From the NCBI GenBank assembly GCA_019695175.1, contig JAIBAM010000002.1, forward strand, positions 1 through 64,000: a stretch of DNA of 64,000 nucleotides, in the 5' to 3' direction. The first letter of the stretch is position 1. The number at the start of each line of letters is the position of its first letter. The notes beneath the pieces were generated by a model that saw only the letters and a list, made by a program, of their open reading frames with translations, was not told the origin of the DNA and did no database searches. Origin of the DNA: Bdellovibrionales bacterium. GTDB taxonomy: Bacteria; Bdellovibrionota; Bdellovibrionia; Bdellovibrionales; UBA1609. Both the position numbers and the translations under genes were made by a program. This document shows, one piece after another, positions 1,846 to 64,000 of the stretch.

Positions 1846-2028
1846 AAAATTTCCTTGCGATAGGTTTAACGACAAACGAACACCATCGTCTGAATCGCAA
1901 ATAGAATGCCAAAAGATTGATATTTAGGATGGCATTTGCTTGATTTCATTAAAGTCGATGCCTATAAGCAGCCCCATAGTGTCACAAATTGGCACCTTGA
2001 CAAAGTACCACGTGTATTACTTAACGCT

Positions 2029-2135
2029 GTGGACATCACTTGGGATCCAGCCAAAGGATCCAGTCAAAGCTGATACCAATTTCAAGAAACACGGGATCTC
2101 ATTTGAGGCCGTCGGCGGCTGTCGTTTAGTCCGCT
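2029..2135 (+). pseudogene. brnT: BrnT-type (DUF497) toxin remnant, frameshifted
   Basis: The plus strand from a GTG at 2029 reads VDITWDPAK and then, after a +1 shift, ADTNFKKHGISFEAV. Together these match the conserved N-terminus of the BrnT ribonuclease toxin family (WDPxKAxxNxxKHGVSFE). The shift is explained exactly by a 13-bp tandem duplication at 2043-2068. After FEAV the family similarity fades and further stops appear (TAG at 2127), so the toxin cannot be made. No BrnA antitoxin was recognised. The open frame extends upstream of the GTG to about 1921, but that part does not resemble BrnT. Confidence 0.6.
2043..2068 (+). repeat. 13-bp tandem duplication inside brnT remnant
   Basis: GGATCCAGCCAAA (2043-2055) is followed directly by GGATCCAGTCAAA (2056-2068), with one mismatch. 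Its length, not a multiple of three, accounts for the frame change in the BrnT coding sequence. Confidence 0.85.
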
Positions 2136-2396
2136 GTAACAGTTACAATCGAGAACGTCAAACCTGTCCAATCTGCTGGGATTGGACAAACGACTCCAGT
2201 ACTGATAACAACGGTTTGTAACCATTGGGATGTCTGTCTGACTTCAGGTCATTATAGTTTCCATAGTTATCGGGGAGAATACAGGATTAGAACCACAATT
2301 CCAGCAGAAAAATTTCCAAGGTGGATGAGTAGGGATTATTTGGATTTAGTATTAAAGGATTTTAGAACTCACCCATTAAAATTCAGTTGGGAATGA
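2130..2396 (+). pseudogene. Orphan open frame, 88 codons, no start codon
   Basis: Between a TAG at 2127 and a TGA at 2394 the frame is open for 88 codons with natural-looking protein composition (segments such as GHYSFHSYRGEYRIRTTIPAE). There is no ATG near the beginning, so this is likely the tail of a broken gene. I do not recognise the family. The 24-bp palindrome at 2165-2188 lies inside this frame, which could mean it was inserted there or is part of the gene. Confidence 0.35.
2165..2188. repeat. 24-bp palindrome, copy 1
   Basis: Perfect 9-bp inverted arms, TGTCCAATC and GATTGGACA, flank a TGCTGG loop. An identical copy lies at 2617-2640. The two sites share no obvious flanking sequence beyond the 24 bp. 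Confidence 0.9.
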
Positions 2397-2571
2397 ATAT
2401 GCTAAAAAGATCACTTCATATCCAAATTTTTCAAAATATTTATATAAAAAATATCGTAACCGCTCAGATCGCTCCGCGAGCGCAAGAAGATGTTTGACGA
2501 GAGCTTTTACGAAAAATTCGAAAATAAATAAAATCAACATTTTTTACAAAAATAAAAATCAATGGAACTCA
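2397..2571. other. Non-coding A+T-rich stretch between remnants
   Basis: No gene is visible. It is strongly A+T rich apart from a small GC-rich hairpin at 2470-2482 (CGCTC, loop CGC, GAGCG), which lacks a T-tract and is not a convincing terminator. Confidence 0.5.
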
Positions 2572-2730
2572 TTAATCGATAAGATCACAAAGAAATCTTA
2601 AAATTCCTAGTTTATGTGTCCAATCTGCTGGGATTGGACAATTTATGCTTTTTTTCGAACCATTCGCTCCTGGGGCAACTACAACTTTGATTCTTTCAGG
2701 ATCTTCAAAGAACACAGCATAGCCTGTGTT
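2572..2730 (-). pseudogene. C-terminal remnant of a VOC/glyoxalase-type protein
   Basis: The minus-strand frame from 2730 to a TAA at 2572 begins NTGYAVFFEDPERIKVVV. This matches the last beta strands of vicinal-oxygen-chelate proteins (YAVFFxDPDGIKLE). A TGA precedes it at 2731-2733, so the rest of the gene is missing. The downstream part of the frame contains the second 24-bp palindrome and does not look like VOC. It lies just downstream of the histidine kinase gene on the same strand and is interpreted as a gene fragment. Confidence 0.5.
2617..2640. repeat. 24-bp palindrome, copy 2
   Basis: This is identical over 24 bp to 2165-2188. It lies within the decayed VOC frame and no T-tract typical of an intrinsic terminator follows directly on either strand. 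Confidence 0.9.
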
Positions 2731-2735
2731 TCATT

Positions 2736-5700
2736 CTACAAATCCATGTTCGGGTTTGAATATTTTCTTTTATTAGTAAATTGAGAAAGGCACCTACTTA
2801 AAGAATCACAATCCAAGGGTTTGCGCAGATAATCATCAAAGCCAGCATTCAAACATCTCTCTTTGTCACCCTTCATGGCATGGGCTGTGAGCGCCACGAT
2901 TGGTTTATAATATTTCCTCTCCCGCAATCGTTTTAAGACCTCAAATCCATCCATGTCGGGCATTTGGATGTCGAGCAACAAAACATCAAAATTCATGGTG
3001 ATAGCTTTATGAATTCCATCCATTCCCGTTGCTGCTGAATCATGGGAATACCCCAGCCCATTGAGGTACAAACTAACAAGGGTTCGATTGTCCTTGGCAT
3101 CGTCAATAATAAGTACACGAGGACCGTGACTCTCCAACAACTTTGGTGGTTGCTGGATTATTAAACCATTCTTCCCAAAACTCCTACCATCACTTTCTAT
3201 AGTAGGATTGACGTTACACTCCTGTGGAGTGGTCACCTTTAACGACGCAATAAAAGTACTACCAACATTGAGTTCACTTTCTTTTAAAATAATGTCTCCA
3301 CCTAAAAGTCGAGCTAATTTACGGGAAAGAAAAAGTCCTAAGCCAGTACCCCCAAAACGTCTTGTTGTTGAACTATCTGCCTGTGAAAAGGGAAAAAATA
3401 AGTTTTTTCTCTGATCTGAGGATATGCCAATACCTGAATCCTGAACAACAATCGTCAGCTGACGAGTTTGATTTGACAAATCTGCTAGTGAAATCTGAAC
3501 TCTAACAAAACCCCGCGCTGTAAATTTGATCGCATTACCAATAATATTAATTAAAATTTGTCGAACTCTTGTTGGATCCGAAATAATTTGATTTGGAATC
3601 TCCGAAATAAATTCAGTAAGCAATTGTAATTTCTTCTCTCGAGCTTTAACGCTTAAGAGGGTGTGCACATCATCAATTAGTTTTTTTATTGAAAACGGAA
3701 TCATTTCCAAATGAATATGATCTGATTCAACCTTTGCTAAGTCTAAAATTTCATCCACAATTCGCAAAAGCTGTTCCGCGTTGCGAATGATGGTGGCCAA
3801 AAAAACGTTTCGATCGGTGGCCTCATTTGGACGGCTTAACAGAATTTCTGCAAATCCTAAAATAGCTCCCAATGGAGTTCTTATTTCATGACTGATATTC
3901 GCTAAAAAAGCACTTTTTGTACGATTGGCTTCTTGGGCTTGTCTAAATAGTGTGGCATTTTCAATTGCCAATGAAGTTCTTTTTGCCAAATCTTGCGCGA
4001 TCGATAAATCCACTTCATTATAAATTCGATTGGTTTCTATTGATAATAAACTCATGACCCCAATCACTTTGCCATACGTCATAAGCGGTATAATCATAAG
4101 GGATTTTGGTTCTTGGTTGTTCCATTTATTGAAGATATTTTTTTTACCAAATTTTATATCCAATATTTCATTGGACAGATTGGTATAAATTTCTGAACTG
4201 GAAACACGCAATAAATACGAACTCTCTTCACTAAGACTGTGACTCGATCCATAATTCATTTGAACTATAGGTTCCACACTGATGTGTTTATTTAAATCCT
4301 TGCAGACGGTTATTCTTTCAATGGATTCACTGATACGATCAAACAAATCGATGCAACAAAAATCAGCAAACTGATTGACGATGACGCGAGCAAAGCCCTG
4401 GAGCATGGGGTGAATATTTAACGTTTCATTAAGAGCACCACTCGCTGCAGATAAAAAAACAAAACGTTCCGCGCTTTTTTCAGCTTCTCTCCGTCCGGCC
4501 TGTTCTTGAAGAAAACTTAGGCGTTGAGCTTCAGCCACTTTTCTTTCGGTAATATCTTCTGTGATCCCCAACAAATACCTGGGCTCACCATCAATTCCAA
4601 GAATAGGAATTTTTCTAGTGTGAATATATTTAAGCCCTTTATCTGTTGAGACAGTCTCCTCAGGTAAATCAACAAGAACTTTCCCCTCAATTACTTTTTG
4701 ATCTTGGGCAATGATTTTTTCCGCCCACTCTTTTGGATAGAGGTCATAATCACATTTACCGATCAACTTTTCCCTAGCCAACCCTAAAATCATCTCACTA
4801 GCTCGATTAAATCGCACATACTTTAAGTCTTTAGCACCTTTAACAAAAATCATGCTTGGAATATTTTCAATAACCGAATCTAGAAAAACCTGAGATTGGC
4901 GTAGCTCTTCAGCAGCAACTTCACTCGCAGCAATAAGACGTTTGAGTTCTTGATTGGCTGTTCTTAACTCTTGAGTTCTCAACAGAACATGCTCCTCCAA
5001 TCGACTGTAGGCATCTACCAAATCCAGCTCCGCTCTTTTTCTTTCACTGATATCTAAAATGAAGGTGGCAATAAGCTCATTTTCCATTTTTGCCCCACCC
5101 ACCAGAACAGGGACTCGCAAACCATTTTTACTAAAATATTCCTTTTCAAAAGGGGTCACCACTCCATGGAGTTTCAGATCATCCATAGCCAACAAACTTC
5201 TTTCTAAAAATTCTGGCGGGGTGATGGCATGTAGAAAAAGTCCGTTTTCCTTCAAATCGGAGCGACTCCAACCAACCATATTAAGAAAATAATCATTGGC
5301 TTCCAAAATTTTGCTTTTGAAATCAATAAAAACTAAACCAATCATATTGGCTTCAAAAACAGAGCGAAACTGAGCCTCACTTTGCCGCCAAAACTCTTCA
5401 GTCATTTTTAATTCTGTGTAAGCTTTTTGAGCTCGATCTTTCGTTCTTTGTAATGATTCAATGATGAGGATGACAAAAGCCCCATCTATAACAAACAATA
5501 CCCCCCTAATTAAATCACCCTTATTAAGAGATAAATTTGGATTATTGAAGTAATAATAATCATACAAAGCAAAAAGTATAAAGGACGTTAAAGATAAAAA
5601 ACCATAAAAACGGCCCCAATTCCAAGTGCAAAAAAGCACGGCACTAAATGATAACCACAGAGATTTATCAAATTCAAACCAGGCCCCAAGGCAATTTTTT

Positions 5701-5771
5701 AAAACATAAATAAATAAAAGGGGTAACAAAATAGCAATTAGAGGAGACCATTTTTTTAAAAAAGTTATCAA
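2736..5771 (-). CDS. Hybrid sensor histidine kinase/response regulator
   Basis: The product is a 1011-residue membrane-anchored two-component hybrid. Domains in order are: about four N-terminal membrane segments (residues 8-110), PAS (about 130-245), a coiled coil, a second PAS (about 295-410), GAF (about 440-600), HisKA with the phospho-accepting His in SHEIRTP (about 626), HATPase with the N-box NIIGNAIKF and G-boxes DSGIG and GGTGLGL, and a C-terminal receiver with the phospho-Asp in LLLDIQMPDMDG (about 932) and Lys in YLRKPLD. It starts at TTG with GGAGA upstream. No separate response regulator or output gene is adjacent, so the phosphorelay probably ends in an unlinked partner. The signal sensed is unknown. 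Confidence 0.93.
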   Translation of the reverse strand: MITFLKKWSPLIAILLPLLFIYVLKNCLGAWFEFDKSLWLSFSAVLFCTWNWGRFYGFLSLTSFILFALYDYYYFNNPNLSLNKGDLIRGVLFVIDGAFVILIIESLQRTKDRAQKAYTELKMTEEFWRQSEAQFRSVFEANMIGLVFIDFKSKILEANDYFLNMVGWSRSDLKENGLFLHAITPPEFLERSLLAMDDLKLHGVVTPFEKEYFSKNGLRVPVLVGGAKMENELIATFILDISERKRAELDLVDAYSRLEEHVLLRTQELRTANQELKRLIAASEVAAEELRQSQVFLDSVIENIPSMIFVKGAKDLKYVRFNRASEMILGLAREKLIGKCDYDLYPKEWAEKIIAQDQKVIEGKVLVDLPEETVSTDKGLKYIHTRKIPILGIDGEPRYLLGITEDITERKVAEAQRLSFLQEQAGRREAEKSAERFVFLSAASGALNETLNIHPMLQGFARVIVNQFADFCCIDLFDRISESIERITVCKDLNKHISVEPIVQMNYGSSHSLSEESSYLLRVSSSEIYTNLSNEILDIKFGKKNIFNKWNNQEPKSLMIIPLMTYGKVIGVMSLLSIETNRIYNEVDLSIAQDLAKRTSLAIENATLFRQAQEANRTKSAFLANISHEIRTPLGAILGFAEILLSRPNEATDRNVFLATIIRNAEQLLRIVDEILDLAKVESDHIHLEMIPFSIKKLIDDVHTLLSVKAREKKLQLLTEFISEIPNQIISDPTRVRQILINIIGNAIKFTARGFVRVQISLADLSNQTRQLTIVVQDSGIGISSDQRKNLFFPFSQADSSTTRRFGGTGLGLFLSRKLARLLGGDIILKESELNVGSTFIASLKVTTPQECNVNPTIESDGRSFGKNGLIIQQPPKLLESHGPRVLIIDDAKDNRTLVSLYLNGLGYSHDSAATGMDGIHKAITMNFDVLLLDIQMPDMDGFEVLKRLRERKYYKPIVALTAHAMKGDKERCLNAGFDDYLRKPLDCDSLSRCLSQFTNKRKYSNPNMDL

Positions 5772-6269
5772 AACAGAATCTCCATTTTATCCAAAAAATT
5801 CCCATCAAATGAATGAGATTTTTATCGAACAATCAAAATCGGCAGTCACAATTCTCACCGAGCGACTGGAGAAGAAACATCCTGAAAGAAGGCTTGGAGT
5901 TACTGCCACTTTTTTTGAATACTGGCAACTTTTTATCTGCAAACTATCTACCCATCATCTAAAATTTAGATTCATTATCTAATATTTAATTAGATAAAAT
6001 AAATTTATATAAAAAAGTTGTTTATTAATTGATTTCTGGATTTTTATAGGGTAGATCTCCATCCCTCTTTGATAAACAAGGGTTATTTTGGTGCAGGACT
6101 TAAGTCAATTTAGAACCAATTTCTATCAAATTTAAATGTTATTTTAATTCAAAAACCCAGACCTCAACCAAGAATCTGTTCGGAAACACTTTTTTAGGCG
6201 GTATGGATTAAAGAATCCTTTTTAAAGAATAGTAAATAATTCCCCGAAAAGAAGATCGGAGGATTTGCA
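5772..6269. other. 498-bp divergent intergenic region
   Basis: The region lies between the divergent kinase and GYF-protein genes and should contain both promoters. It is A+T rich, especially 5990-6030. No operator, small RNA or tRNA could be recognised. GGAGG at 6257-6261 is the ribosome binding site of the 6270 gene. Confidence 0.5.
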
Positions 6270-7241
6270 ATGTCGAAGTATATTGTTTCCCAACAAGGAC
6301 AAGAAATCGGACCTTATACAGAGGATGAAATTCGAGCACTTCTTCAATCCAAACAAATTCAACCGATTGATTACATTTATGACGAGGAAATCCAAGATTG
6401 GGTTTTGATAATGGATAAATTTGATTTTCGACAAATAATCCCTGGCCACAGACCGAACCCCATGGCCACAAAAGATAATGTTGATATTTACCCACAGCTC
6501 CCAACTAAAGTGATCCAAATTCCAAAAAATCAAGCTCCTTTACTGAGTATGGAGCCCAAAACATCTACTTTGAGCTCGGAACCTACCCAGTCCCCTTCTC
6601 CTCCCTACAATCAAGTAGTGTTTAATTCTGGGGTGGCGAATTTAGAGCTCAGACAAGTTCAAGCAGGGGCGATACAAATCCGTTTTGAGGAAAGTACTAT
6701 ACCTCAGATTTCCCTTCCGGAAACACACGTAATTCAAATTCAAGCAGCTCAAGCCCATAGCATTGAGTGGAAAGTTCCACCTTCTGTTATTTCCGGAGAA
6801 ACGGTCAATGTGGAATTTTATGCTTGTGATCACTTTGGGAATTCCACCACTCAATTTGAAAACAATTTAGATTTAGTAGTTCATTCCCAGCATGCGCCAC
6901 AACATCATAAAATCCAATTTCAAAGTGGGGAAGCTAAATGGTCTTTCACTCCAACTCTTACCGAAACCATTCAATTGGAACTACATGACACCTTACAACT
7001 GGGTCTTCATCTTCCAGGACCGCAACTTATTCAAATTAAACCAGGAGCTCTGGCACGTTTTGTTTTAGAATCACCTCCCGAAACCATCGCCGGTGAAAAC
7101 CTGTCACTTACCATTAAGGCTGTGGATAAGTTTGGGAATTTAGTCGTGGATTTTAAGGGTGAAATCGGTTTAAAAATTTCACTGGATCAGAAACCTCAAC
7201 AAAAAGTAAAACCTATTGGGTTCCCAATCAAAAAAGTTTAA
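6270..7241 (+). CDS. GYF_2-domain protein with two Ig-like segments
   Basis: Residues 1-60 form a GYF_2-like domain (QGQEIGPYTEDEIRALLQ, then an Asp-Trp pair near 48), a module thought to bind peptides or mediate protein contacts. A Pro/Ser/Thr-rich linker follows (about 75-115). Then come two segments of similar design, each with a GE(T/N)xxxxxxAxDxFGN motif (about 172-215 and 270-305), typical of bacterial Ig-like or invasin-type beta sandwiches. There is no signal peptide or membrane helix, so the location is probably cytoplasmic. A GGAGG sits 8 bases before the ATG. Function is unknown and the domain calls are from motifs only. Confidence 0.7.
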   Translation: MSKYIVSQQGQEIGPYTEDEIRALLQSKQIQPIDYIYDEEIQDWVLIMDKFDFRQIIPGHRPNPMATKDNVDIYPQLPTKVIQIPKNQAPLLSMEPKTSTLSSEPTQSPSPPYNQVVFNSGVANLELRQVQAGAIQIRFEESTIPQISLPETHVIQIQAAQAHSIEWKVPPSVISGETVNVEFYACDHFGNSTTQFENNLDLVVHSQHAPQHHKIQFQSGEAKWSFTPTLTETIQLELHDTLQLGLHLPGPQLIQIKPGALARFVLESPPETIAGENLSLTIKAVDKFGNLVVDFKGEIGLKISLDQKPQQKVKPIGFPIKKV

Positions 7242-7274: not shown

Positions 7275-8606
7275 CTAAAGAAGGGTCCCCCCAAGAACCA
7301 CACTAGCCACTGAAAAGTAAATGATCAGTCCTGTCACATCGACCAAGGTAGCTACTGCCGGAGCTGAGGCTGTTGCAGGGTCCACCCCCACTCTCCTGAG
7401 TAAAAATGGAAGCATGGCGCCCATGAGTGAACCCCACAAAACCACTCCCACCAGACTTAAAGAGACAGTTATTGCTATAACCACATAATGTTGCAGATAA
7501 ACAGGGTCTTTAATGGGCCAAAATACAACTCTAAGCATTCCAATGAAACCCAGTAAAGCCCCTAAAGATAACCCGGTGAAAACCTCTCGAATTAAAACTC
7601 TCCACCAATCTTTTAAGCCCACTTCCCGAAGGGCCAGCGCTCTAATGATCAGCGAAGATGCCTGAGACCCAGAGTTCCCACCGCTACTAATGATAAGAGG
7701 TATAAATAAAGTCAGTACCACGGCCTTACTAATCTCATATTCAAAGTAACTCATAGCTGAGGCTGTAAAAAGTTCACCTACAAAAAGTATGGTCAACCAC
7801 ACGCCTCGTTTCTTAATCATATCAATAAAACTTATTTTCAAATAAGGTGCGTCTAACGCCTGCGTACCACCTAGTTTTTGAATATCTTCAGTGGCTTCTT
7901 CTTCAACAACCGAAACAATATCATCTACGGTAACAATCCCTTTCATATGATCGTTTTGATCCAAAACAGGTAGAGCCAATAAATCATATCGGGAAAACTG
8001 TCGTGAGACTTCTTCCTGATCCACATTGTCTCGTAAAAAAATCAAATCTGTTTTCATGATCGTTTGAATCACTCGATCAGGGGGAGCCAAAAATAAATCT
8101 CGAAATGAAACCACACCTTTTAACTTTTGCTCAAAGTCCAAAACATAAGCGTAATAAATAATTTCTATCGGGTTTCTAGCTTGAGCCCTAATATAGCGAA
8201 TGGCTTCTTCAACAGTCATTTCAGGGCGCAGACGGATGTAACGCGGATTCATCAGCCCCCCCGCGTCATCCTCGGCATAGGCTAACAATCCAATAACCTC
8301 ATGCCGGGTCTGGGAATCCAATAGAAGCAGAGCTTCCTGTCGTTGTTCTAAAGGGAACAGTTGAAACAAATCAGCACTATCATCTGGGGCCAAAAGTCGG
8401 ATCCAGGATCTTTTTTCCAAAGGGGAGAGCTCGCTGAGAAGTTCATACTGATAAGGAGCTTTTAAATTTAAAAATAACTCCTCAGCATCCGTTCGCAAAA
8501 GTTGATTAAAATATTCTTTACGATCCTCTAGGTTAAGTTGGCTCCAATGCTCTATCAGAGAAGTCACTGAAGATTTGTCGATTTCTGGCTGTGTCTCCAT
8601 GATCAT
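7275..8606 (-). CDS. mgtE: Magnesium transporter MgtE
   Basis: This is an inner-membrane Mg2+ channel or transporter. The 443 residues show the family layout: an N-terminal superhelical domain (about 1-130, with repeats such as LFQLFPLEQRQEALLLL), paired CBS domains (about 131-255), a connecting helix, and five membrane helices (about 275-443) with the conserved end PATASAPAVATLVDVTG. The cytoplasmic domains normally close the pore when Mg2+ binds. Length is typical. ATG at 8606 is used here (a second ATG lies two codons later), and it overlaps the stop of a possible small upstream ORF as ATGA. Confidence 0.95.
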   Translation of the reverse strand: MIMETQPEIDKSSVTSLIEHWSQLNLEDRKEYFNQLLRTDAEELFLNLKAPYQYELLSELSPLEKRSWIRLLAPDDSADLFQLFPLEQRQEALLLLDSQTRHEVIGLLAYAEDDAGGLMNPRYIRLRPEMTVEEAIRYIRAQARNPIEIIYYAYVLDFEQKLKGVVSFRDLFLAPPDRVIQTIMKTDLIFLRDNVDQEEVSRQFSRYDLLALPVLDQNDHMKGIVTVDDIVSVVEEEATEDIQKLGGTQALDAPYLKISFIDMIKKRGVWLTILFVGELFTASAMSYFEYEISKAVVLTLFIPLIISSGGNSGSQASSLIIRALALREVGLKDWWRVLIREVFTGLSLGALLGFIGMLRVVFWPIKDPVYLQHYVVIAITVSLSLVGVVLWGSLMGAMLPFLLRRVGVDPATASAPAVATLVDVTGLIIYFSVASVVLGGTLL

Positions 8607-8677
8607 CTTCCATCGTAAATAGCCTTAAGGTTACGGGCAAAACCATCTTTACGACTGCAACAGGTACACCCGTCCAT
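8603..8677 (-). CDS. Possible 24-residue small ORF coupled to mgtE
   Basis: ATG at 8677 opens a frame (MDGCTCCSRKDGF...) ending in a TGA at 8603-8605 that overlaps the mgtE ATG as ATGA. AAGG lies about 11 bases upstream of its start. Three cysteines sit in the first seven residues. The overlap suggests translational coupling or a leader role for mgtE, but the frame is short and could be chance. Confidence 0.3.
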   Translation of the reverse strand: MDGCTCCSRKDGFARNLKAIYDGR

Positions 8678-8720
8678 TATAGTTTGACCTTGTATTATTC
8701 TTTCGGCGCACCATAGCTGA

Positions 8721-10067
8721 TCATTGAGTAACAATCAACTGACGAAAAAAAGAAACCAGAGCGGCTTGAGCAGTTAATGGAGAAAGACCCTGACTTTCAG
8801 CTAAAAACTGAGCTAAATCAATAATAGATTTCTTTCCATCGATTTTTGAAAAAATATGACTCTGCAGTTCTGTTGCAAATATATATTGTTTAAAATAATC
8901 CGGACCCGGCAATGGAAGATTTACATTTCTAATCCATTCTGGATCATAATAAAACGGAGAGGGTTTTTCCATAGAAGCTATTTTATCTGCTAAAAAACAC
9001 CAGATAGACTCTGTTCTCTTTTGTCCACTATGAGGGGACTGAAGGTAGGGTACGATTGCTCGTTTTTCCTTTTTCAAATGAAATCCCTGACTCTTAACTA
9101 TTTCTTGAGCTTCCTCAAAACTCCACTGTTGCGCTAAAGGAAAATTTAAAAATCCATAGGGTCCAAAATTAATCCACTGCCCCTGATCGCTTAAGACCGA
9201 ATTAATTCTTTTTGCCATTTGATCTAATTTTTGTGGAATCACATCCACAAACCAGGGGGTGATCACGGTATCGAACGTTCCTGCCAAAAATGGCAAATTC
9301 ATTCCATCCGCCAGCATCCAAATTAAATTTTGAGGAGCGGGAGTGACTCCCCCACAAACTCCCTTCACCGCCACTAGATCTAAAGAAAGTGGCGCGATGG
9401 GAAACTCATAAAACTCAAGGGAGGCACCACTGGACATTTTTTTGCCGAATAAAAGTAAAAGTGGGTTGATATCCAAAGCGACAATAATTTGATCCGATTG
9501 AACCTGCAAAGACAAATCATAGGCCAATCTACTAGCGCCGGAACCTAAAATCAGCACATGGCCTAAATTTCTAGAACTGTTTAAATCCATTATTAGATCT
9601 AAACTGATCTTATTTTCTTCATCGCCCCAACACCAGTCGCGATGCAAATTGGTATAATAACCCATAAGGTGCTGTTGCAAAGGAAGGGAACTTTTCAAAG
9701 CCTCATGATGTTTTAACTGCAGTGGGGATTTTTTTAAAAATGATGCCATTATTTCTTTCAAACAAGATTGATTGTGCAATAACCCCTGGTGCAAAAGATC
9801 CCAACGCTTTCGTGACAATAGATCAGAGCGTTGATTACTGAGTAGCTCCAACTGGGAGGCCTGATTCCCCATAAGTTGAATTTGATAATCAATTTTTTGC
9901 TTCCATTCATAAAGAGCCACGTCAGGATGGGAAAAAAGAAAAGGAATTCCACTCACCTCAGGGAATAGTGTGTGGCAAGTTTTACAGCAAAATTGACCTG
10001 CCTTGGAAACAAGAACAACTTCACAGTCCGGACAAGTCACTTTCCCCAATAAAAAAGAATCCACCAC
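8721..10067 (-). CDS. SAM-dependent methyltransferase-like protein with zinc-ribbon head
   Basis: The N-terminus (residues 8-45) has two CxxC pairs (CPDC, CKTC) and a LFPEVSGIPFL pattern, as in Trm112-like zinc ribbons found at the head of some methyltransferases. The centre has a Rossmann SAM motif (HVLILGSGASRLAYDL), an acidic strand end (VALDIN) and LADGMNLPF, a normal class I methyltransferase core. The last 75 residues (QLxSHIFSKIDGKKSIIDLA...) resemble a PqqD or winged-helix domain. The gene starts 5 bp after the end of the 10073-13069 gene on the same strand. The substrate cannot be inferred. Confidence 0.72.
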   Translation of the reverse strand: MVDSFLLGKVTCPDCEVVLVSKAGQFCCKTCHTLFPEVSGIPFLFSHPDVALYEWKQKIDYQIQLMGNQASQLELLSNQRSDLLSRKRWDLLHQGLLHNQSCLKEIMASFLKKSPLQLKHHEALKSSLPLQQHLMGYYTNLHRDWCWGDEENKISLDLIMDLNSSRNLGHVLILGSGASRLAYDLSLQVQSDQIIVALDINPLLLLFGKKMSSGASLEFYEFPIAPLSLDLVAVKGVCGGVTPAPQNLIWMLADGMNLPFLAGTFDTVITPWFVDVIPQKLDQMAKRINSVLSDQGQWINFGPYGFLNFPLAQQWSFEEAQEIVKSQGFHLKKEKRAIVPYLQSPHSGQKRTESIWCFLADKIASMEKPSPFYYDPEWIRNVNLPLPGPDYFKQYIFATELQSHIFSKIDGKKSIIDLAQFLAESQGLSPLTAQAALVSFFRQLIVTQ

Positions 10068-10072
10068 AGTTT

Positions 10073-13069
10073 TTACAGACCTTTTAAAGTTGGGGTAATT
10101 TTTAACTCCACCATTTGTCCCGCTCGATTCACCTTTATGTTTGTCATCTCATTGGCTTTTATAGATTGAAGACAATAAACATAATCTTGAAGATTTCGAA
10201 TGGGAATCCCACCCAATTGAATAATAATATCGCCACTGCGCAGTCCTGCTTTTTCCGCTGGAGATTCTTTTTTGGTCCCGGAAATTCGAACTCCACTAAC
10301 CTCTCCCTGTGAGTAATCCGGAATTGTCCCAATATAGAGTCTAAAACCGCGTCCCTCGTTGGGACTATAGTTCCCCTCCACCTTTTTGTAGGTTAACCCT
10401 GCTGACTTAGGCGACGCAATTTGCTCCACCAAATGACTTACAAAACGAGTTGTTTCCAGAAGCCCGGCATAGTTAATGGTGTCTGATGTATCCCGAGGTG
10501 TATGATATTCGGCATGGGCTCCAGTGAAAAAGGAAATGACCGGGATTTCTTTTAGGTAAAAGGAAAGCGCGTCCGTAGGCAAATACGGATCCGAAGAAAG
10601 AGCTATTGGAAGATCATGTTTCACGGCCACAGGTTCAATATAACCCGACCACTGCTCTGCCGAACCGACACCCTGAATATAAAGTTTATTATTGAGTCTA
10701 CCCACCATATCCAAGTTCACATAACCCACAATATTTTTGACCTCAGGAGCTTTTAAAAAGGCGTTGGCCCCCAACAAACCCATTTCCTCCCCTGACCAAA
10801 CTGCAAAGGCCAAATTATATTTGAAATGCAAAGACCCCTCGCGATTCTTTCTGGAAAAATATTGCGCCAACTCAAGGACTGAAGCCACTCCTGAAGCATT
10901 GTCATCAGCACCATAATGAACTTTACCGTGTTCAGTTGTACTGGCCAGGGATTGTCCTTGATTCCCATGACCCAAATGGTCCCCATGGGCCCCAATCAGG
11001 AGTGTTGATTTTGCCCCGGGAACCTTTATGAAAGCGACCACATTTGAGGCGGACTTATGAGTTGTCTCCAAATCCACCTGACCTGAGATTTTCATTGCAC
11101 CGCTAAAATCAACAAACTCTCCCTGATCTAATATTTTTCTCGAATCTACTAAGTTAAAGAAAGGCGAAAAAATTTTTTCTGCCACGGCACTTGTAAACTG
11201 CACCACCGGAATACCCACATCCGCAACCGCTCCTGATTGCGAGTGGTTGGATAATTGACTTCCAATAATTATGATTCCTGAAGCACCTGCTTGTCGTGCG
11301 GCTATGGCTTTGTTCTGAGTTCGAGAGAAAAAATTCAAGTGGAAGCGTTGCTCATTGGTTAAGTTGGCTGGCATGTCCTCAAAAACAATGACCCACTTAT
11401 TCTTTACATTAAGCTTTTGGTAGGAATTGTATGAATACCCATTTATTGAGGGGGTGGCGTTGATTCCGTAACCTGCAAAAACCCACTCCTGGCCCTGGAA
11501 AGACCCTACATTACTGCTCAATAAAGGAATCCAGTCCTGATTCAAACTTAACGTGAAGGTTTTTTTGTCCAACAGTAACTCCACATGGTTCTTAGGGCCC
11601 ATGTGGATTCCTTCCACAAAAGCATATCTTGACAAAAACCCTTTAGGAAAAAAGGGGGTCAATCCTTCTTTTTTAAAGTAATTCCCAATGGCCGTTTGAT
11701 AAATTTGTTCTTCTTTTGATCCTGTTTCTCTTCCCGACATTTTTTCATCACTTAGGTGTCTCACCCAAAACTTAAGTTCTGACTCGGTAATGGAGGCTCG
11801 AGGCGGAAAGGGATAAGTGATATTTTTATCCACTGGTAGTCCTAATAATTTCCTCGCAAGGCCATCATCCCAAGCGGATAAATAAATTTGAGAGTCACCT
11901 TTCTGATTTCTTTTTGTCCACGATAAATGCTGTCCATCGGGTGTAAAAACAGGAAGTCCGTCAAAACCTGAGGATTGAGTCACGCGAACAGGAGCATGGG
12001 TTCCATTAGAGTCCACAATGAATAATTCAAAGTTGTCGTGTCCATACAGACTACTTGTAAATACAATATATTCACCACTTGGATGATAATAGGGAGCCCA
12101 CGACATTACATTTAACTTTGTAAGTTGCTTTTGATCCGAACCATCACGATTCATGGACCAAATTTCTGCAGTTCGTCCATCTTCGGCAAAGTGACGCCAA
12201 ACAATCTTTTTTCCATCGGAGGAGAAAAAGGGTCCTCCGTCATAACCATTCATCGTAGTTAAACGGCGCACATTTTTTCCATTGGCATCCATGAGATACA
12301 AATCCATAAAGTAGGATGGATCTTTCTCTCGTTTTTCTAAAATACTCGCGAAGTTTTCACCCACATAGGCTTGTCGATTGGATGCAAAAACAATTTCATT
12401 CCCCTCAGGAGAATAAGAGGCTTCCGCATCGTAGCCTGGAGTTAAAGTCAAAGGCTTTAATTTTCCGTTTTTCAAATTCACTTCAAAAATATCATAGTAC
12501 TCATCATAACTCCATGAGTAGGGTGCAGGCTTACCACTTTTACGAATTTCCATTTCCTGTTTCGCTTTTTCTTTCCAATGCGGATCTAAATGGGTGCTGG
12601 AAAAAAGTGCTTTGTGTCCATTTGGGTGCAACCAAGAACAAGTGGTTTTTCCATTTCCATTGGAAAGACGTTTTATATCTCCTGACTCCAGGTCTTTTAA
12701 ATAAATTTGGTAAAAGGGGTTCCCGGTCTGACGTTCACTTTGAAAAATCATTTTTGTTCCATCGGAACTAAAATACCCCTCCCCGGATCGATTTCCCTGG
12801 AAGGTCAATTGACGAACTTCACCTTTAAGCGGAGTGATAAAGGCATTTTCCAAAGAGGTTGCTGGGAGAGATGCTGGTGTTCGCACACTTGCTGTCATGG
12901 AAAAATGCCCTGAATTTTTGGGTAAAGCCTCAACCTTATCACCACTAAAGGATGTATTGCTGCCGGAACCATCGATATGTTGAACACCACTTGAAGGATC
13001 AACAATCAATGACTTGTGTTGACAAAATGTTAATAGGACTAGGATTAGTAAATAAAAATAGACTCTCAT
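10073..13069 (-). CDS. Lipoprotein PD40 propeller / M28 aminopeptidase / PDZ protein
   Basis: A signal peptide ends in a lipobox (LTFC, Cys16), so it is an envelope lipoprotein. Residues about 85-410 contain several TolB/PD40-type beta-propeller blades (for example SPEGNEIVFASNR, SSDGKKIVW, HPSGEYIVFTSS). A PA-like insert (about 560-650) is followed by an M28 zinc peptidase core (about 690-880) with GAHGDH, ADDNASG, SGEEMGLLG, NLDMVG and a later HAEYHTPRDT, giving all expected metal and catalytic residues. A PDZ domain closes the protein (about 905-995). At 998 residues it is larger than ordinary M28 enzymes. It probably trims peptides in the periplasm or at the surface, and the propeller may select substrates. 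Confidence 0.88.
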   Translation of the reverse strand: MRVYFYLLILVLLTFCQHKSLIVDPSSGVQHIDGSGSNTSFSGDKVEALPKNSGHFSMTASVRTPASLPATSLENAFITPLKGEVRQLTFQGNRSGEGYFSSDGTKMIFQSERQTGNPFYQIYLKDLESGDIKRLSNGNGKTTCSWLHPNGHKALFSSTHLDPHWKEKAKQEMEIRKSGKPAPYSWSYDEYYDIFEVNLKNGKLKPLTLTPGYDAEASYSPEGNEIVFASNRQAYVGENFASILEKREKDPSYFMDLYLMDANGKNVRRLTTMNGYDGGPFFSSDGKKIVWRHFAEDGRTAEIWSMNRDGSDQKQLTKLNVMSWAPYYHPSGEYIVFTSSLYGHDNFELFIVDSNGTHAPVRVTQSSGFDGLPVFTPDGQHLSWTKRNQKGDSQIYLSAWDDGLARKLLGLPVDKNITYPFPPRASITESELKFWVRHLSDEKMSGRETGSKEEQIYQTAIGNYFKKEGLTPFFPKGFLSRYAFVEGIHMGPKNHVELLLDKKTFTLSLNQDWIPLLSSNVGSFQGQEWVFAGYGINATPSINGYSYNSYQKLNVKNKWVIVFEDMPANLTNEQRFHLNFFSRTQNKAIAARQAGASGIIIIGSQLSNHSQSGAVADVGIPVVQFTSAVAEKIFSPFFNLVDSRKILDQGEFVDFSGAMKISGQVDLETTHKSASNVVAFIKVPGAKSTLLIGAHGDHLGHGNQGQSLASTTEHGKVHYGADDNASGVASVLELAQYFSRKNREGSLHFKYNLAFAVWSGEEMGLLGANAFLKAPEVKNIVGYVNLDMVGRLNNKLYIQGVGSAEQWSGYIEPVAVKHDLPIALSSDPYLPTDALSFYLKEIPVISFFTGAHAEYHTPRDTSDTINYAGLLETTRFVSHLVEQIASPKSAGLTYKKVEGNYSPNEGRGFRLYIGTIPDYSQGEVSGVRISGTKKESPAEKAGLRSGDIIIQLGGIPIRNLQDYVYCLQSIKANEMTNIKVNRAGQMVELKITPTLKGL

Positions 13070-13203: not shown

Positions 13204-16200
13204 TTACTTAAGAATACCTGAGCAGTCTTTTCCTATTGTTTTTTCTTCTGAAAAGCCACTTGATTCCACTCCTGCTATTGGCGGTGATGGATCCAACACA
13301 GTTAAACCTAAAGGCTGAGACGAACGTCTTAAGAACAAACTCCTAAAAAAAGTTTGAATAGCCTCCTTTCGATTGTTCCACGCCCAGCGAATAGTCTCCA
13401 AAAATGAAAGTTTCAATTGTGCCCTGTAACTGTCAATTTTTTCTCGGACACGAGATTCTAATTCTTCTGAAGGAGTGCGCCAATTCCTTGGCTCTCCACT
13501 TACAAATTTTTGATATTGATTTAATTGGATAATCCCCCTAAAAAAATCGAAATATTTTATATCCACTTCAAATCCTGCGAACTCTAAAGCGCTCAATAGG
13601 GCGAAATACGCAGTTTCAGATTGAAGAGCCCTATCAGGGAAAACCTTTTTCAAAGCATTTGTCAGTTGAGATGTGGTCTTATCATCCAATGAATGCATCT
13701 GTTGCAATTGATTGGCTATCCAATGGACAGATCCAACCTCCTTCGCGATCTGAGAGAGGGCGAACATATCAATAACATGTTGACGTTCCTTGTTAGTTAT
13801 TTCAAGAAGCTGGCCAAAGTCAATGGGGCTCAACTCAATTGATTTAATGGTTAAGAGACCATCGCCATTTGTTTTGTTGATATGAATACGATAGTTACCC
13901 GCATGTCGGTCAGGATCAAATTTTATCAAATCCTGTTCACCAAATAAGATATCTCGCTCCATTTTAAGAATCTTTTCAGCCAAAAGTTTCTTAAGTTCAT
14001 CAGATAACGTAAAGAAACCTACACCGCGCGCATACTCTGCAACAATCAAACGATCTTTTGCCAAGATTTCACGCGGGACCGCCACTTCAAATATGTGATC
14101 AGAAGCCTGAGCGTAGATCGTTTCACGAGCTAGGCGGGATCTTTTGACTTCATCAGATACTATAAGCTCCCTCTCCACTGCGCGCTTCGAAGCGTTCACG
14201 ATAGAGGCAAAAACCGAATATTTTGTGCCATATTTTTTAGTCAGAAATTTTACCATTTCCGTTAGTAATAAAAACTCCATTCGAGTATGGGCTAGTGCCT
14301 CCAGGCGAACAATTTTTAAGACAATATCAGCTCTCGTCGCCCCATCAGAAGCGAGTATGGCGTACTTCAACGAAGCTGCGCCAAGCAAGTGTTTCAACTT
14401 GAAAGGTAAATTATCACCAATTTTAAAACCGTAAATGCTTCGCAAGTCAGCGTATTGGGTTTCTCGCATTGGCACATTGGCGCGCTCCTGAAGTTTACGT
14501 AAAATTTCTGTTTCCTTTGCAGGCAACAACCCACTCGTCGCGATAAATTGTCCTATCTTAATTCCGGTCGCTCCGAAAATCTCCAAAATCTGTTTAAGAA
14601 TCTCACCGATCGAAGTTTGTTGATTTGGTGGAGTAGCCAGAAGATAACCTAGAACGATCGATTGCAGTCCGTTGTTGTTAGTAGCTTCCAAGGCATGCAA
14701 GAACCCCTCTAAAAGTTCTCTCGCTATCCGTGCTTCATTTTCTGCAAAGTTTCTCATCAAGTGGTCAATAATCGTTTTTGACCAACCTTTTCTAACATCA
14801 ACCTTTGCAAGAAGACCCGACGGCGAATCTAAAAAGGATTCTATCAAGCCAGTCCTAGCCTCAACAGGTAATACTTCAAACATTCTCTTTATGCGGAAAA
14901 CACCTATTGTTCGGAAACCTTTTTTTATAGTGGCTGAGGGAGCTCCTTCTCCACGAAGAAATAAAATTAGATTCCATTGGTCCACGAGTTCCCATTTCAA
15001 ACCTGCTTCGAGTAAGCCAGAGAACACGCGTAAACCAAAGTCCTCCTGCTTTTCTCCACCGGCACTAACTATTTTTGCCTCATGAAGTTGTCGGCTTTCA
15101 ATATCAGTACTGTTGATTTCAATCGAAATTTCTTCGATCAACTCAGCAAAACATCGACCGCGCTCGGGCAGTCTTTTCTCTAAGTATTTCAGAATCTTAT
15201 CTAACAATCTTTTGCGAAAATTAGGTTTTTCAGAAAACAAAAGAGCCTTGTAAATTCTGCTTGATTTCAACTCATCGCGGACGAGTTCAATTTTTCTTTC
15301 TGGCTCCCAAATTCGCCCTTCCAGCAGGGCCACATCTACAAGCTTCTGCTTCTGACCCTTATCCTCATCCGCCAACGTATAAATTTCCTCAAATAAACGA
15401 TCCGTTGTTGAGGTTACCCCTCTAGAAGTTAGCTTTTGCCAAAGATCGAATTTTTCATCAAAATTCTGCGGCAAAAAGCCTTTTGTTCTTAAAACTCTAA
15501 GAATCAGATCATGATATTTCTCTGCTGATCCGGGTTCGAATTTCCATACGTTTGGGAACTGTTTTTGTAGTTTTCTAAAGGACTCGTCGAAAAGTCTTTC
15601 TAACGTAGAAAAATGGCTGTTCCAGTTCATCTTTGGCCATAAGATATCTTGATCTAAAAGTAAGTCTACATCCTCTCTGGTTTCGAACCATTCAGGATGC
15701 TCTAAAATGATGTCGACAAGCATAGGAGCTAGTGTCTCCATATCAACGTTCCGTGGTTTTAAATCATTGATCAGGAAAGACACCAGTTGTTGTAACGATT
15801 TGAACTTTTGCAAATAATCTTTCAGGAATCTTTCATTCTTTTCCTCTAGCCAAAGCCTTGCACTCATCGTTATTGAGAGGCCCACCGGTACCTGATTAAA
15901 TAAAGTATGATGAGCGACTCTATCTGCTGGGTTCATGATTAATTGATATAGGTTATCAATTATAATGGCCCAATTGAGTTTGCCTCCTCGATACTTACGC
16001 TTATAAGTACCCATAGTTTCTATTTTAAGCCTGGTAAGCAAGCGCTTAAATGTTTTCGCTTCCTCAGCATTAGCTCGATTCGGAAAGAGAACGTAATCTG
16101 TCACTCGATTCAGGTTTCTTTCGAGAAGATTGAAGGCTGTGTCTCTTTGCTCAACAAGGAATAGATTTGAAATCAAAGATAATAAATCTGATTCAGAGAT

Positions 16201-17949
16201 TGTTTGGCGACTTAGCCACTGAAGCCTTAAGCGATATTGCCAAGAGGATTCGTCCTTCTGCCTTACCGGCTTGAGGTTCCACCCGTCAATCGAGACAAAT
16301 CTTAAAAGAGACTTGTAAATGGGTTCATACTCATAAGCGGCTGCCGGTATTTTATCAAATGCAATATCAAGCCTCTGCCTATCACACTCAGCAAAATTCT
16401 GATTAATTTCATCTAAAAGCTGTTGAGTCATATTAAAATATCCTGTCAGAGCCCAGCTAAGTCCAGATAGATCGCGTACACGTATGAGACTTGTATCAAA
16501 TAATTCAATAAGACCCGCCATATCTTCGGAAATAAAAGAAAGCAATTGAACGGGAAGATTAGGGTTAGACTCACTATTAGTTGCTATCATCTGCTCATAG
16601 GTGCGATTATGCTTTTGCAATTGTATTTTGTATTCTTTAAGTGAATGAAATTCATTGGAACCAGTGACCCTATTATAGATCTTCTTCAGCCCAAGAGTCC
16701 CAGTAATCGCGTATAAATTTGCCCAACCGATGTGATCGGAAATTATATTCAATGTCCAGGAAAGCCCACCATTAAACCCTTCCTTAGTAGCGTTGATGTA
16801 GTAAAGAATAATTGCCCCAATGGAATCTGAATTTTCACCTGCGACTTGATTCATAATCTGGGATACCGCCAGATCCGTAATCGATGCGCCAAAAATAGCC
16901 ATCGCGAGTTGATCAACTGCCGAGTAGGCAAAGAACCCCAACACCGCGCGATGGAACCACATTGATATGAGGGGCGTTAAAACAATTCCTATTCGAAAAC
17001 GCAGCATATTGATGGTGGCACTAAAACTCGTGAATTCCTGAGTGTTTTCCACCAAGTCAATTTCCTTGGAACGTTTTACTATCCACCCTTTTATTGCGGA
17101 CATCCGTACCTCAGCAACCGGATGGGTCGAAAGATATTCAAAACTATGCTTAAAAGTCCTCCTAAAAATTCTTGTATCCCAAGAGTCCGAAAACTTCCGA
17201 GCTACTCGCCGATGATAGTTGTATCCAGCCCAAGGATTATATTTGCCGAGAATCAATCTTTCCGTTGCTCCAATATCAGCGCGTATTTCTTCGCGCTGGG
17301 ACTGATTGAGCCCTTTATAACCAGAAAGTGAATCTAAAAACTCTTGAAATGCAGGGTCGTCTGTAAGGGCCCTCATATACCCTGGATTGGCATGAGTCGC
17401 CTCATGAGCCATCACAAAGGCTAATTCGTCGACATTTTCAGAACCATGAAGAAGACCCAGGTTGACCGTCATCTTTCCAGATGACAGGATAGATGCGTTT
17501 GGAACTGGACTAGGTGAAACCCTAATTTCGTAAGTTGTCCGGTCTTTCTCGACTCGGATTCGTTCCATGATTTCTTTGAGAAACGCTTTAAGGGATCGAC
17601 CATGACCAAGGATCAATAATTTCGTAAATAAGCCCACTCGATGAATGACAGCCATCTTTTCAATTTCTTCAAATGTTGATTTCGCCGCCTCATGGACAAT
17701 TGCGTTTGGCCTTTGATCCGCAAGAGCGGGATCTATTTCAAATTTTTGAAGTTCATCATGTTCACCGACAGGTTGTTCAGCCATGACAGATACTGTAGTT
17801 CTCTCCAAAGAAGTAACATGTCCCGGAGGGGAATCTTCAGATCTTGCAAACGCTGGCGTTAGGATTATATCAATGGCCAATAGAGTAGTGAGAATTCGAA
17901 GTTCAAATGACATAGCTTTTAGAGAATGCAAAGGAGGTACCACTTTCAC
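13204..17949 (-). CDS. Giant exported M48-like metallopeptidase fused to an ABC1/UbiB-type kinase module
   Basis: The 1581-residue protein has an N-terminal hydrophobic segment that looks like a signal peptide if translation begins at the ATG at 17913 (MSFELRILTTLLAID...PAFA); a GTG lies at 17949. A peptidase part shows HEATH (about residue 182) with a downstream REEIRADIGATE, the HExxH plus ExxxD arrangement of M48 enzymes. One or two hydrophobic stretches follow at about 315-360. About 700 residues of alpha-helical sequence with no recognised family come next. At about 1120-1400 the ABC1/UbiB kinase hallmarks appear in order: KIGQ, GAASLKYA, the Lys in ADIVLKIV, AEYARGVG, DPDRHAGN and PIDFGQL. 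No partner gene is evident. Cellular location of the kinase part is puzzling if the signal peptide is real. Confidence 0.7.
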   Translation of the reverse strand: MKVVPPLHSLKAMSFELRILTTLLAIDIILTPAFARSEDSPPGHVTSLERTTVSVMAEQPVGEHDELQKFEIDPALADQRPNAIVHEAAKSTFEEIEKMAVIHRVGLFTKLLILGHGRSLKAFLKEIMERIRVEKDRTTYEIRVSPSPVPNASILSSGKMTVNLGLLHGSENVDELAFVMAHEATHANPGYMRALTDDPAFQEFLDSLSGYKGLNQSQREEIRADIGATERLILGKYNPWAGYNYHRRVARKFSDSWDTRIFRRTFKHSFEYLSTHPVAEVRMSAIKGWIVKRSKEIDLVENTQEFTSFSATINMLRFRIGIVLTPLISMWFHRAVLGFFAYSAVDQLAMAIFGASITDLAVSQIMNQVAGENSDSIGAIILYYINATKEGFNGGLSWTLNIISDHIGWANLYAITGTLGLKKIYNRVTGSNEFHSLKEYKIQLQKHNRTYEQMIATNSESNPNLPVQLLSFISEDMAGLIELFDTSLIRVRDLSGLSWALTGYFNMTQQLLDEINQNFAECDRQRLDIAFDKIPAAAYEYEPIYKSLLRFVSIDGWNLKPVRQKDESSWQYRLRLQWLSRQTISESDLLSLISNLFLVEQRDTAFNLLERNLNRVTDYVLFPNRANAEEAKTFKRLLTRLKIETMGTYKRKYRGGKLNWAIIIDNLYQLIMNPADRVAHHTLFNQVPVGLSITMSARLWLEEKNERFLKDYLQKFKSLQQLVSFLINDLKPRNVDMETLAPMLVDIILEHPEWFETREDVDLLLDQDILWPKMNWNSHFSTLERLFDESFRKLQKQFPNVWKFEPGSAEKYHDLILRVLRTKGFLPQNFDEKFDLWQKLTSRGVTSTTDRLFEEIYTLADEDKGQKQKLVDVALLEGRIWEPERKIELVRDELKSSRIYKALLFSEKPNFRKRLLDKILKYLEKRLPERGRCFAELIEEISIEINSTDIESRQLHEAKIVSAGGEKQEDFGLRVFSGLLEAGLKWELVDQWNLILFLRGEGAPSATIKKGFRTIGVFRIKRMFEVLPVEARTGLIESFLDSPSGLLAKVDVRKGWSKTIIDHLMRNFAENEARIARELLEGFLHALEATNNNGLQSIVLGYLLATPPNQQTSIGEILKQILEIFGATGIKIGQFIATSGLLPAKETEILRKLQERANVPMRETQYADLRSIYGFKIGDNLPFKLKHLLGAASLKYAILASDGATRADIVLKIVRLEALAHTRMEFLLLTEMVKFLTKKYGTKYSVFASIVNASKRAVERELIVSDEVKRSRLARETIYAQASDHIFEVAVPREILAKDRLIVAEYARGVGFFTLSDELKKLLAEKILKMERDILFGEQDLIKFDPDRHAGNYRIHINKTNGDGLLTIKSIELSPIDFGQLLEITNKERQHVIDMFALSQIAKEVGSVHWIANQLQQMHSLDDKTTSQLTNALKKVFPDRALQSETAYFALLSALEFAGFEVDIKYFDFFRGIIQLNQYQKFVSGEPRNWRTPSEELESRVREKIDSYRAQLKLSFLETIRWAWNNRKEAIQTFFRSLFLRRSSQPLGLTVLDPSPPIAGVESSGFSEEKTIGKDCSGILK

Positions 17950-55426: not shown

Positions 55427-55623
55427 GTGCGCTTTGGATCATGATCCCTATCACTGTTCTCTTAGGCTTATTTTTCCTGATCGCATTTATATGGGCCTCC
55501 CGTTCTGGTCAGTTTGATGATTTGGAGACCCCTTCCCATCGAATCTTAATTGAAGAAGTTCCCACTGAAAATAACACATTGATAACATCATCTTTTTCAC
55601 ACAAAGAAAGGGCCACTTTATGA
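55423..55623 (+). CDS. ccoS: cbb3 oxidase maturation protein CcoS
   Basis: A 66-residue protein with one membrane helix (about 5-28, WIMIPITVLLGLFFLIAFI) followed by WASRSGQFDDLETPSHRIL, the conserved CcoS signature. CcoS is needed to put heme and copper into the CcoN subunit. It overlaps both neighbours, ccoI upstream and ccoNO downstream (ATGA in each case), so it is translated as part of the operon. Confidence 0.93.
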   Translation: MSALWIMIPITVLLGLFFLIAFIWASRSGQFDDLETPSHRILIEEVPTENNTLITSSFSHKERATL

Positions 55624-63900: not shown

Positions 63901-64000
63901 ACAGCTCGAATTTCCACTTAAACTACCTCCTGACACGCATGTACCTCCTTCACCAGGGAAAGTTCCCCCTTTAAATGAGAAGGGTCCATTTATTAATGGA
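60961..64000 (-). CDS. Choice-of-anchor/Ig-like repeat surface protein with a c-type heme motif (5' end outside window)
   Basis: The frame is open through position 64000, so the N-terminus is cut off; GTG at 63936 is internal. From the N-terminal side at least six Ig-like units of roughly 115 residues are visible, each with FSF(K)GG/FPGTGG, a Cys pair (G-T-C... S-C-T-I), P-A..AHSG-L-I-NYNNG and a next-unit start such as LTPAAVDFGSRAIG. These resemble the choice-of-anchor D/HYDIN-type family. After them a segment with CTGCH (coordinates about 61850) and a following cytochrome-like stretch (LGSSSTLSAIQGGINSRM..., MGKGNYGSLTESQVQTILNWL) looks like a monoheme cytochrome c domain. The last 190 residues contain NSNQVTNAVYRG-free, unassigned sequence with several Cys. 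It is probably exported, perhaps surface-located. Confidence 0.8.
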   Translation of the reverse strand, partial: PLINGPFSFKGGTFPGEGGTCVSGGSLSGNSSCQVVVSYLATTVAGSHSGALTINYNNGVDTTSVSRNLRGQTVVAGVASISADSGEAPSSDPVNFGSGVIGSSARELTLRVRNDAAAGGSAINQIEVTGLLAPFSFKGGSFPGTGGSCVARGSLAARASCTLVILFTPANGPLAHSVNITINYNNGRVNTSVVKALTAQTIAPGVASLSPTTLTFGQRTIGSGPTDLLVTLSNTSLGSSITNISGAALTSPFSYKGTAGFPGTDGTCRTNGSLAAGASCTIKISYSPASIAVSHSGSLTITYNNGATSTSVSKALTGETVAVGAATLTPAAVDFGSRAIGSSAVEQVITLSNTAAAGGSALSGLSGAALSGSFSYSGGGGYPGGGTCGTSLNVGSSCTIKVKYTPASSASAHTGTLTINYNNGAAARTATSSLTGRTVAVGVATLTPAAVDFGSRAIGSSAVEQVITLSNTAAAGGSALSGLSGAALSGSFSYSGGGGYPGGGTCGTSLNVGSSCTIKVKYTPASSASAHTGTLTINYNNGAAARTATSSLTGSTVSNALLEISPVNVLAVKVGERRREIITIRNSGGSAASGLSITTSVGGASVALSASSNATAFKYTGGTFPGTGGTCSSTLSGNSSCTISVDFSPTANGLIRATINVGYGNGISNQQTAFNISGRGAGDLRTRVYYSTVKSIISPDTNNNETDTTGCTGCHGMNFKTYDSIRIFKNPLGSSSTLSAIQGGINSRMASIIQTPRTTSTGSVQMGKGNYGSLTESQVQTILNWLAQDAPNDPPSANGASIEAQPFETLQGDRYYIASVLNKVYGSDASKVTPHVQKLSARADLFGSTCNPQDTTYESNSDLRVKKISVVAGASQDICPKVNLGESEMEATSNPVSTIMSEGVRASVCIKLSGDKGNIAVALSRANLLSQSNNLADINSSNLTKAFQRFYPGATPSGDVITKLTELGRAISPASGQNGVAGILVESGKDKLFEAWRMILMTLCLSSGWVVP
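62336..63043 (-). repeat. 354-bp near-identical tandem duplication
   Basis: Copy A (62336-62689) and copy B (62690-63043) agree at every base except one (an A/G change near 62672 versus 63026). The unit is 118 codons, exactly one Ig-like repeat, so the reading frame is kept. The other repeat units in the gene are clearly diverged. Confidence 0.95.

Follow-up and report, generated by a model that had tools for sequence, protein, structure and literature searches.

An M48-type peptidase and an ABC1/UbiB-type kinase module are joined in one 1581-residue protein, predicted to be exported, that is encoded on the minus strand of the window, the 64,000-nucleotide stretch of Bdellovibrionales DNA analysed here. 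By sequence and structural model, the N-terminal domain is a BepA-type M48 zinc peptidase with a complete, putatively active site, and the C-terminal domain is an ABC1/UbiB kinase fold with its catalytic residues kept. The protein belongs to a real family of such giants and is not an assembly error. The ORF was confirmed as the single 1581-codon frame of the original prediction; an alternative ATG start at codon 13 would give a 1569-residue product and retain the signal peptide. Every motif named in that prediction was found (HEATH, REEIRADIGATE, KIGQ, GAASLKYA, VLK, AEYARGVG, DPDRHAGN and DFGQ), with REEIRADIGATE starting at residue 219, GAASLKYA at 1190, VLK at 1210-1212, DPDRHAGN at 1345-1352 and DFGQ at 1377-1380. 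The separation of HEATH from the kinase motifs, put at about 940 residues, measured ~945 to KIGQ. Both sites are complete in the window protein, the first with HEATH and E221xxAD, the second with KIGQ, K1212, E1267, D1347, N1352 and D1377.

Table 1. Features of the giant M48-ABC1 protein, with their coordinates in the window.
Feature	Coordinates	Strand	Basis or conservation
Giant M48-ABC1 protein, 1581 aa	13204-17949	-	GTG start; homologous single ORFs in 30 genomes
Predicted Sec-type N-terminal signal peptide, residues 1-36, h-region LRILTTLLAIDIILTPAFA	17842-17949	-	Hydropathy and delta-G scan
BepA-like M48 peptidase domain, residues 105-300	17050-17637	-	Pfam PF01435 E=2.6e-12; AF2 core; Foldseek BepA 6e-5
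HEATH zinc motif, residues 182-186	17392-17406	-	Read from sequence
ExxAD third zinc ligand, E221-D225	17275-17289	-	Alignment with 3c37
Borderline hydrophobic segment, residues 315-337, possible transmembrane helix	16939-17007	-	delta-G ~0.2 kcal/mol
Giant-specific all-helical domain, residues 765-1112, LxxRGVTxxTD	14614-15657	-	AF2 mostly confident
ABC1/UbiB atypical kinase-fold domain, residues ~1118-1430	13660-14598	-	TIGR01982 2.1e-9; COQ8A fold match 1.2e-7
KIGQ, residues 1131-1134, UbiB-specific KxGQ	14548-14559	-	Q invariant: 29/29 giants, 31/31 exported ~700-aa forms, 6/6 canonical
K1212, beta3 (VAIK) lysine	14314-14316	-	Giants, n=29: K 11, R 8, other 10
E1261xI1263 (ExD, Asp lost) and E1267 (alphaC Glu equivalent)	14149-14169	-	Alignment
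Catalytic loop D1347-R-H-A-G-N1352	13894-13911	-	Asp, His invariant in 29/29 giants
I1376-DFGQ metal-binding motif, D1377	13810-13824	-	Asp invariant in 29/29 giants
C-terminal tail, predicted disordered, residues 1540-1581, end KDC1576SGILK	13207-13332	-	AF2 pLDDT <50

The matches of both domains go beyond what chance would give. In a model of the N-terminal 760 residues, AlphaFold was confident only over the M48 core (~105-300), and Foldseek with this model returned BepA first and 3c37 at 4e-3. Compared with solved structures, the family profile matched the M48 structure 3c37 at 1.4e-24, with BepA weaker, and the ABC1 structure 5yjz at 9e-17, with COQ8A/B weaker; these matches remove doubt over the domain calls. 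D225 is invariant in alignment A6, and HExxH is intact in 20 of the 28 giants that have an N-terminus. BepA (YfgC), a periplasmic M48 protease of outer-membrane protein assembly, shares with the window protein an export signal and the full HExxH and ExxAD motifs, and is the best PDB match of the N-terminal model. The likeness stops short of BepA proper, for which the equivalog model NF052400 gave an E value of 0.085 (11.6 against 570 bits). Unlike BepA, the 1581-residue chain carries an ABC1 domain, and a Pfam search of it detected no TPR domain.

Searched as a single protein, the giant of the window scored just under the cut-off of the Pfam ABC1 model PF03109 (E=8.7e-5, 22.2 against 22.9 bits), a model matched by 15 of 19 family members, and the NCBIfam UbiB model TIGR01982 aligned with residues 1106-1416 (36.5 bits). 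The latter score is far below the equivalog cut-off of 487.55, and the protein is therefore not UbiB itself. An AlphaFold model of residues 690-1581, built with relatives as the alignment, had a mean pLDDT of 82.6 and the predicted kinase fold; COQ8A was its best PDB match in Foldseek, and all five PDB matches below 0.001 were COQ8A or a mycobacterial ABC1 protein. With the UbiB/ABC1 family (COQ8A, UbiB, MSMEG_1954) the domain has in common KxGQ, the small-residue loop, the beta3 Lys, the alphaC Glu, the catalytic-loop Asp and Asn and the DFG Asp. It differs from that family in being part of a chain that is peptidase-fused and apparently exported, in following a helical domain not found elsewhere, in a catalytic loop that reads DRHAGN in place of the usual H-x-D-x-H-x-G-N, in the loss of the ExD Asp, and in ending with a Cys tail where the family has a transmembrane helix. 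The ExD position holds Asp in 18 of 29 giants and Ile in the window protein; only two of six canonical sequences, as aligned, have Asp there, and the position is therefore not family-defining in the alignment used.

For a survey of relatives the helical domain was used alone as a profile (A8), which sidesteps common ABC1 and M48 proteins. This profile has no sequence match in the PDB, and D850 of the LxxRGVTxxTD motif is invariant in alignment A4. It found 42 ORFs or places in 30 of the 369 genomes of the phylum (27 of 182 genera; ~8% of genomes), at most four per genome, with ORF lengths of 1,070-3,350 aa for all except one, which lies at the end of a contig. With the whole window protein as query, 45 of the 369 genomes matched; giant ORFs account for about 30 of these, and ordinary ABC1 or M48 proteins for the others. 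The family of ~42 related ORFs with the same domain pair dispels the idea of a one-off protein. Nothing was found in favour of a fusion of two genes by an error of assembly or gene calling; we rejected this artefact as having a negligible chance of being correct, as uninterrupted homologous ORFs with the same domain order recur across numerous independent assemblies, one of them on a contig of 1.2 Mb. An ABC1 match, a kinase fold and single genes in the homologues, the three points at which the original prediction declared itself vulnerable, were all found. Literature searches, which largely excluded subscription papers, yielded no published M48 peptidase-ABC1 fusion, and the ABC1 architectures catalogued in a 2005 survey comprise Usp-ABC1, RIO1-ABC1 and C-terminal transmembrane forms and no peptidase (PMC1262709), in line with the claim that such a fusion had not been described.

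Giants are patchily distributed, with paralogues in some genomes, and are mostly 15-30% identical in pairs. The one other genome of the window genus (74% complete) lacks the giant protein. When a degenerate form of the loop motif was run against 84,980 species genomes, an approach that may miss diverged members, relatives came only from records titled Bdellovibrionales, Bdellovibrionia, Oligoflexia/Oligoflexales, Bacteriovoracia, 'Deltaproteobacteria' and similar MAG titles; a scan of named genomes with the single protein as query found none, and the alignment-based scan did find them. In L051, two giant paralogues, at 2025-7223 (-) and 7324-12027 (+), adjoin and are divergently transcribed. 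Six ORFs of ~1860-2070 aa in a single genome, G060 (L083-L087), gave weak ABC1 matches and have neither a DxHxxN loop nor HExxH; they were set aside and are possibly other kinase-domain signalling proteins. A mobile or phage origin was rejected, since viral contigs and plasmid collections contained no relatives of the giant and the window protein had no useful PHROG or PADLOC match.

The patchy distribution with paralogues, the presence of predators in the phylum and the large secreted multidomain chain would suit a protein that enters or acts upon a second cell, be it prey, competitor or protist, with ATP available to the kinase there. When flanking ORFs were compared all against all by BLAST, however, the giants showed no conserved neighbours, and therefore no linked secretion or immunity gene at the compared loci; homologues also turn up in members, Oligoflexia among them, that are not known to be predators, and the Sec signal and tail are suggestive of tethering. 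We consider delivery very unlikely, and the 'toxin-like delivered protein' of the original prediction found no backing at these loci.

Most Bdellovibrio-like genomes (G133, G136, G148 and others) also encode a second exported form, a signal-bearing ABC1 protein of ~695 aa that ends in R/S-C-[EQS]-x-V/I-F (L105:2763-4850 (+), L106, L107, L113-L142). These ~700-aa proteins have no M48 domain, giant helical region or internal transmembrane segment. The view that ABC1 proteins otherwise keep to the cytosolic side is not supported here, as exported ABC1 proteins without a peptidase are widespread in the phylum. In common with the giants they have export, a near-C-terminal Cys and the metal-site residues; they differ in lacking the M48 and helical regions, in a separate kinase-tree lineage, and in two substitutions, Arg for the beta3 Lys in 28 of 31 and Thr for the alphaC Glu in 26 of 31, the Asp, His, Asn and Asp of the metal/catalytic site being invariant. 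The L105 protein has a match at 5.4e-23 to phrog_9248, a family of phage proteins that carries no name. A quick kinase-region tree set apart three groups, namely giants, ~700-aa forms and canonical UbiB, and AU tests rejected a single origin both for the exported ABC1 forms as a whole (p 0.004) and for the M48+ABC1 proteins as a whole, L088 among them (p 0.0017). The latter rejection arises because L088 joins M48 to a more ordinary ABC1 domain. Both results are leads, not proofs, because branches are long and the groups were named after the first tree was seen. The L088 ORF (6458-11866 (-)) encodes an exported 1802-aa protein with M48 (HEVGH) and ABC1 (HADLHPGN) motifs that groups apart from the other giants, and is possibly a second, independent M48-ABC1 union.

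Export of the giant, as originally predicted, is indicated by the hydropathy of its N-terminus, and a similar signal is present in nearly all homologues; signals of giants and relatives were called from hydropathy, with a delta-G scan in addition for the 1581-residue protein. The scan, its parameters checked on AcrB and MgtE, recovered 11 of 12 expected helices in the first and four of five in the second. It showed no strong transmembrane segment beyond the signal in the distant giants scanned, and, C-terminal to M48, weakly hydrophobic segments in the window protein's own clade. Cys is also scarce: with tails excluded it makes up 0.20% of the giants and 0.06% of the exported ~700-aa forms, compared with 0.43% in the phylum's canonical UbiB-type proteins and 1.07% in a sample of the window genome, and it is 0.11% in the kinase region compared with 0.47% in six canonical sequences. 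From the family-wide signal peptides, the lack of a strong internal segment in distant members and the scarcity of Cys, we infer that the whole chain after the signal, ABC1 domain included, probably faces the periplasm. A single real transmembrane helix after the M48 domain would instead put the kinase domain in the cytosol, and the borderline segment at 315-337 makes the 'different topology' of the original prediction possible for the window protein. Such a membrane-spanning enzyme, its signal cleaved off, with a periplasmic M48 domain, a helix at ~315-337 and a cytosolic ABC1 domain supplied with ATP, could signal the state of the peptidase across the membrane. The weak segments in the nearest relatives and the retention of the beta3 Lys and alphaC Glu in the window protein are consistent with it. 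We nevertheless judge it unlikely: neither the position nor the strength of the segment is conserved across the family, distant members of like architecture show no strong internal helix, the two segments in L062 would bring the chain back to the periplasm, Cys content is low throughout, and exported ABC1 proteins with a similar Cys tail have neither M48 nor an internal helix. AlphaFold confidence falls below a useful level at residues 325-710, and ~450 residues of poorly modelled helical linker separate the M48 and helical domains.

A periplasmic ABC1 domain raises the question of how a kinase-fold protein works outside the ATP-rich cytosol, on which both the giants and the exported forms bear. 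The periplasm, unlike the intermembrane space, is poor in ATP, and the problem seen by the original prediction is a real one. One solution is that the ABC1 domain is a pseudokinase, a metal/nucleotide fold kept for stability or switching in an envelope scaffold whose only enzyme is M48. The scarcity of ATP beyond the cytosol, the loss of the beta3 Lys in 18 of 29 giants and 28 of 31 exported forms, often together with the alphaC Glu, and the missing ExD Asp of the window protein are consistent with this. It would be unusual for a dead fold, however, to keep the catalytic Asp, the His, the DFG Asp and the KxGQ Gln invariant over so large a divergence, with the catalytic-loop Asn nearly so (26 of 29 giants), and the window protein retains Lys and Glu; we regard a pseudokinase as improbable. 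The nucleotide-site substitutions in relatives give some support to the 'unusual co-substrate' of the original prediction, though less for the window protein itself, in which both residues, beta3 Lys and alphaC Glu, are retained.

The tail of the giants has a conserved feature. Cys occurs within the last 20 residues of 24 of 29 complete giants, compared with 3.8% of internal 20-mers (p ~1e-29, relatedness ignored), and in nine of the 29 it is the sole Cys after residue 45. In a held-out test on giants that only the helical profile later brought up, the tail Cys was present at 12 of the 14 C-termini that are complete. It is also present in 29 of 31 sampled exported ~700-aa forms. Two genomes, sampled at 128 and 222 ORFs, revealed that Cys tails are not general there. 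Canonical UbiB proteins of the same genomes have a hydrophobic C-terminal segment where the giants and exported forms have the Cys tail. We lean slightly towards the Cys acting as an anchor. On its flexible tether it would stand in for the membrane helix that closes ordinary UbiB proteins at the C-terminus, and would fix the giant to a membrane through a lipid or to a partner through a disulfide. Literature searches on a C-terminal Cys signal in Bdellovibrio yielded nothing relevant. Conservation of a near-terminal Cys in exported proteins that are otherwise poor in Cys points, in a concrete and testable way, to an attachment step not recognised before. A wider proposal, which we hold to be doubtful, is that the phylum evolved exported UbiB-fold enzymes on two or more occasions, and that these use a nucleotide-site chemistry other than the usual ATP mode (beta3 Lys and alphaC Glu replaced, all metal ligands kept) and are anchored by a Cys tail of the form C-x-x-hydrophobic-aromatic that a putative attachment machinery recognises. 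Two separate exported lineages, one in Bdellovibrio-like genomes that include cultivable predators, offer material for the question of extracytosolic kinase folds.

Our preferred reading, put forward tentatively, is that the giant is a Sec-exported envelope protein in which a periplasmic UbiB module like Cqd1/Cqd2 is combined with a BepA-type peptidase and tethered by the C-terminal Cys. The Sec signal would direct export, leaving the whole remaining chain facing the periplasm; the ABC1 domain may serve there as a lipid- or quinone-handling module, and the M48 domain could trim or clear a protein tied to this work, as BepA does for outer-membrane proteins. Lipid or quinone handling by the ABC1 domain is itself a conjecture with somewhat less than an even chance. 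The genes neighbouring the giants include none that point to quinones or lipids, and the same genome encodes an ordinary 578-aa UbiB, so that the basic quinone role is already filled, which counts against the quinone reading. Either site is lost in some relatives, and coupling of the two activities is therefore not required family-wide. The UbiB proteins Cqd1 and Cqd2 of yeast face the intermembrane space and control the distribution of CoQ, placing a UbiB domain on the periplasm-equivalent side of the inner membrane as proposed for the giant; unlike the giant, neither is described with a peptidase domain or a Cys tail in the portion of that report drawn on here (PMC8346625). By uniting a UbiB-type protein with an M48 quality-control peptidase in one chain, the giant finds an echo in the mitochondrial intermembrane space, with its UbiB proteins Cqd1/2 and its M48 peptidase Oma1.

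Several other genes in the 64-kb window were recorded. The next gene downstream, 134 bases from the giant (10073-13069 (-)), encodes an exported 998-aa protein with PD40 beta-propeller repeats, an M28 peptidase and a PDZ domain. It is followed at 8721-10067 (-) by a 448-aa protein that matches carnosine N-methyltransferase (CARME, 4.3e-10), a family with a mainly eukaryotic association. At 55620-57740 (+) lies a 706-aa fused cbb3-type oxidase subunit with COX1 (CcoN-like) and FixO (CcoO-like) domains, and at 60961-63936 (-) a 991-aa protein with ASH/HYDIN-like Ig repeats.
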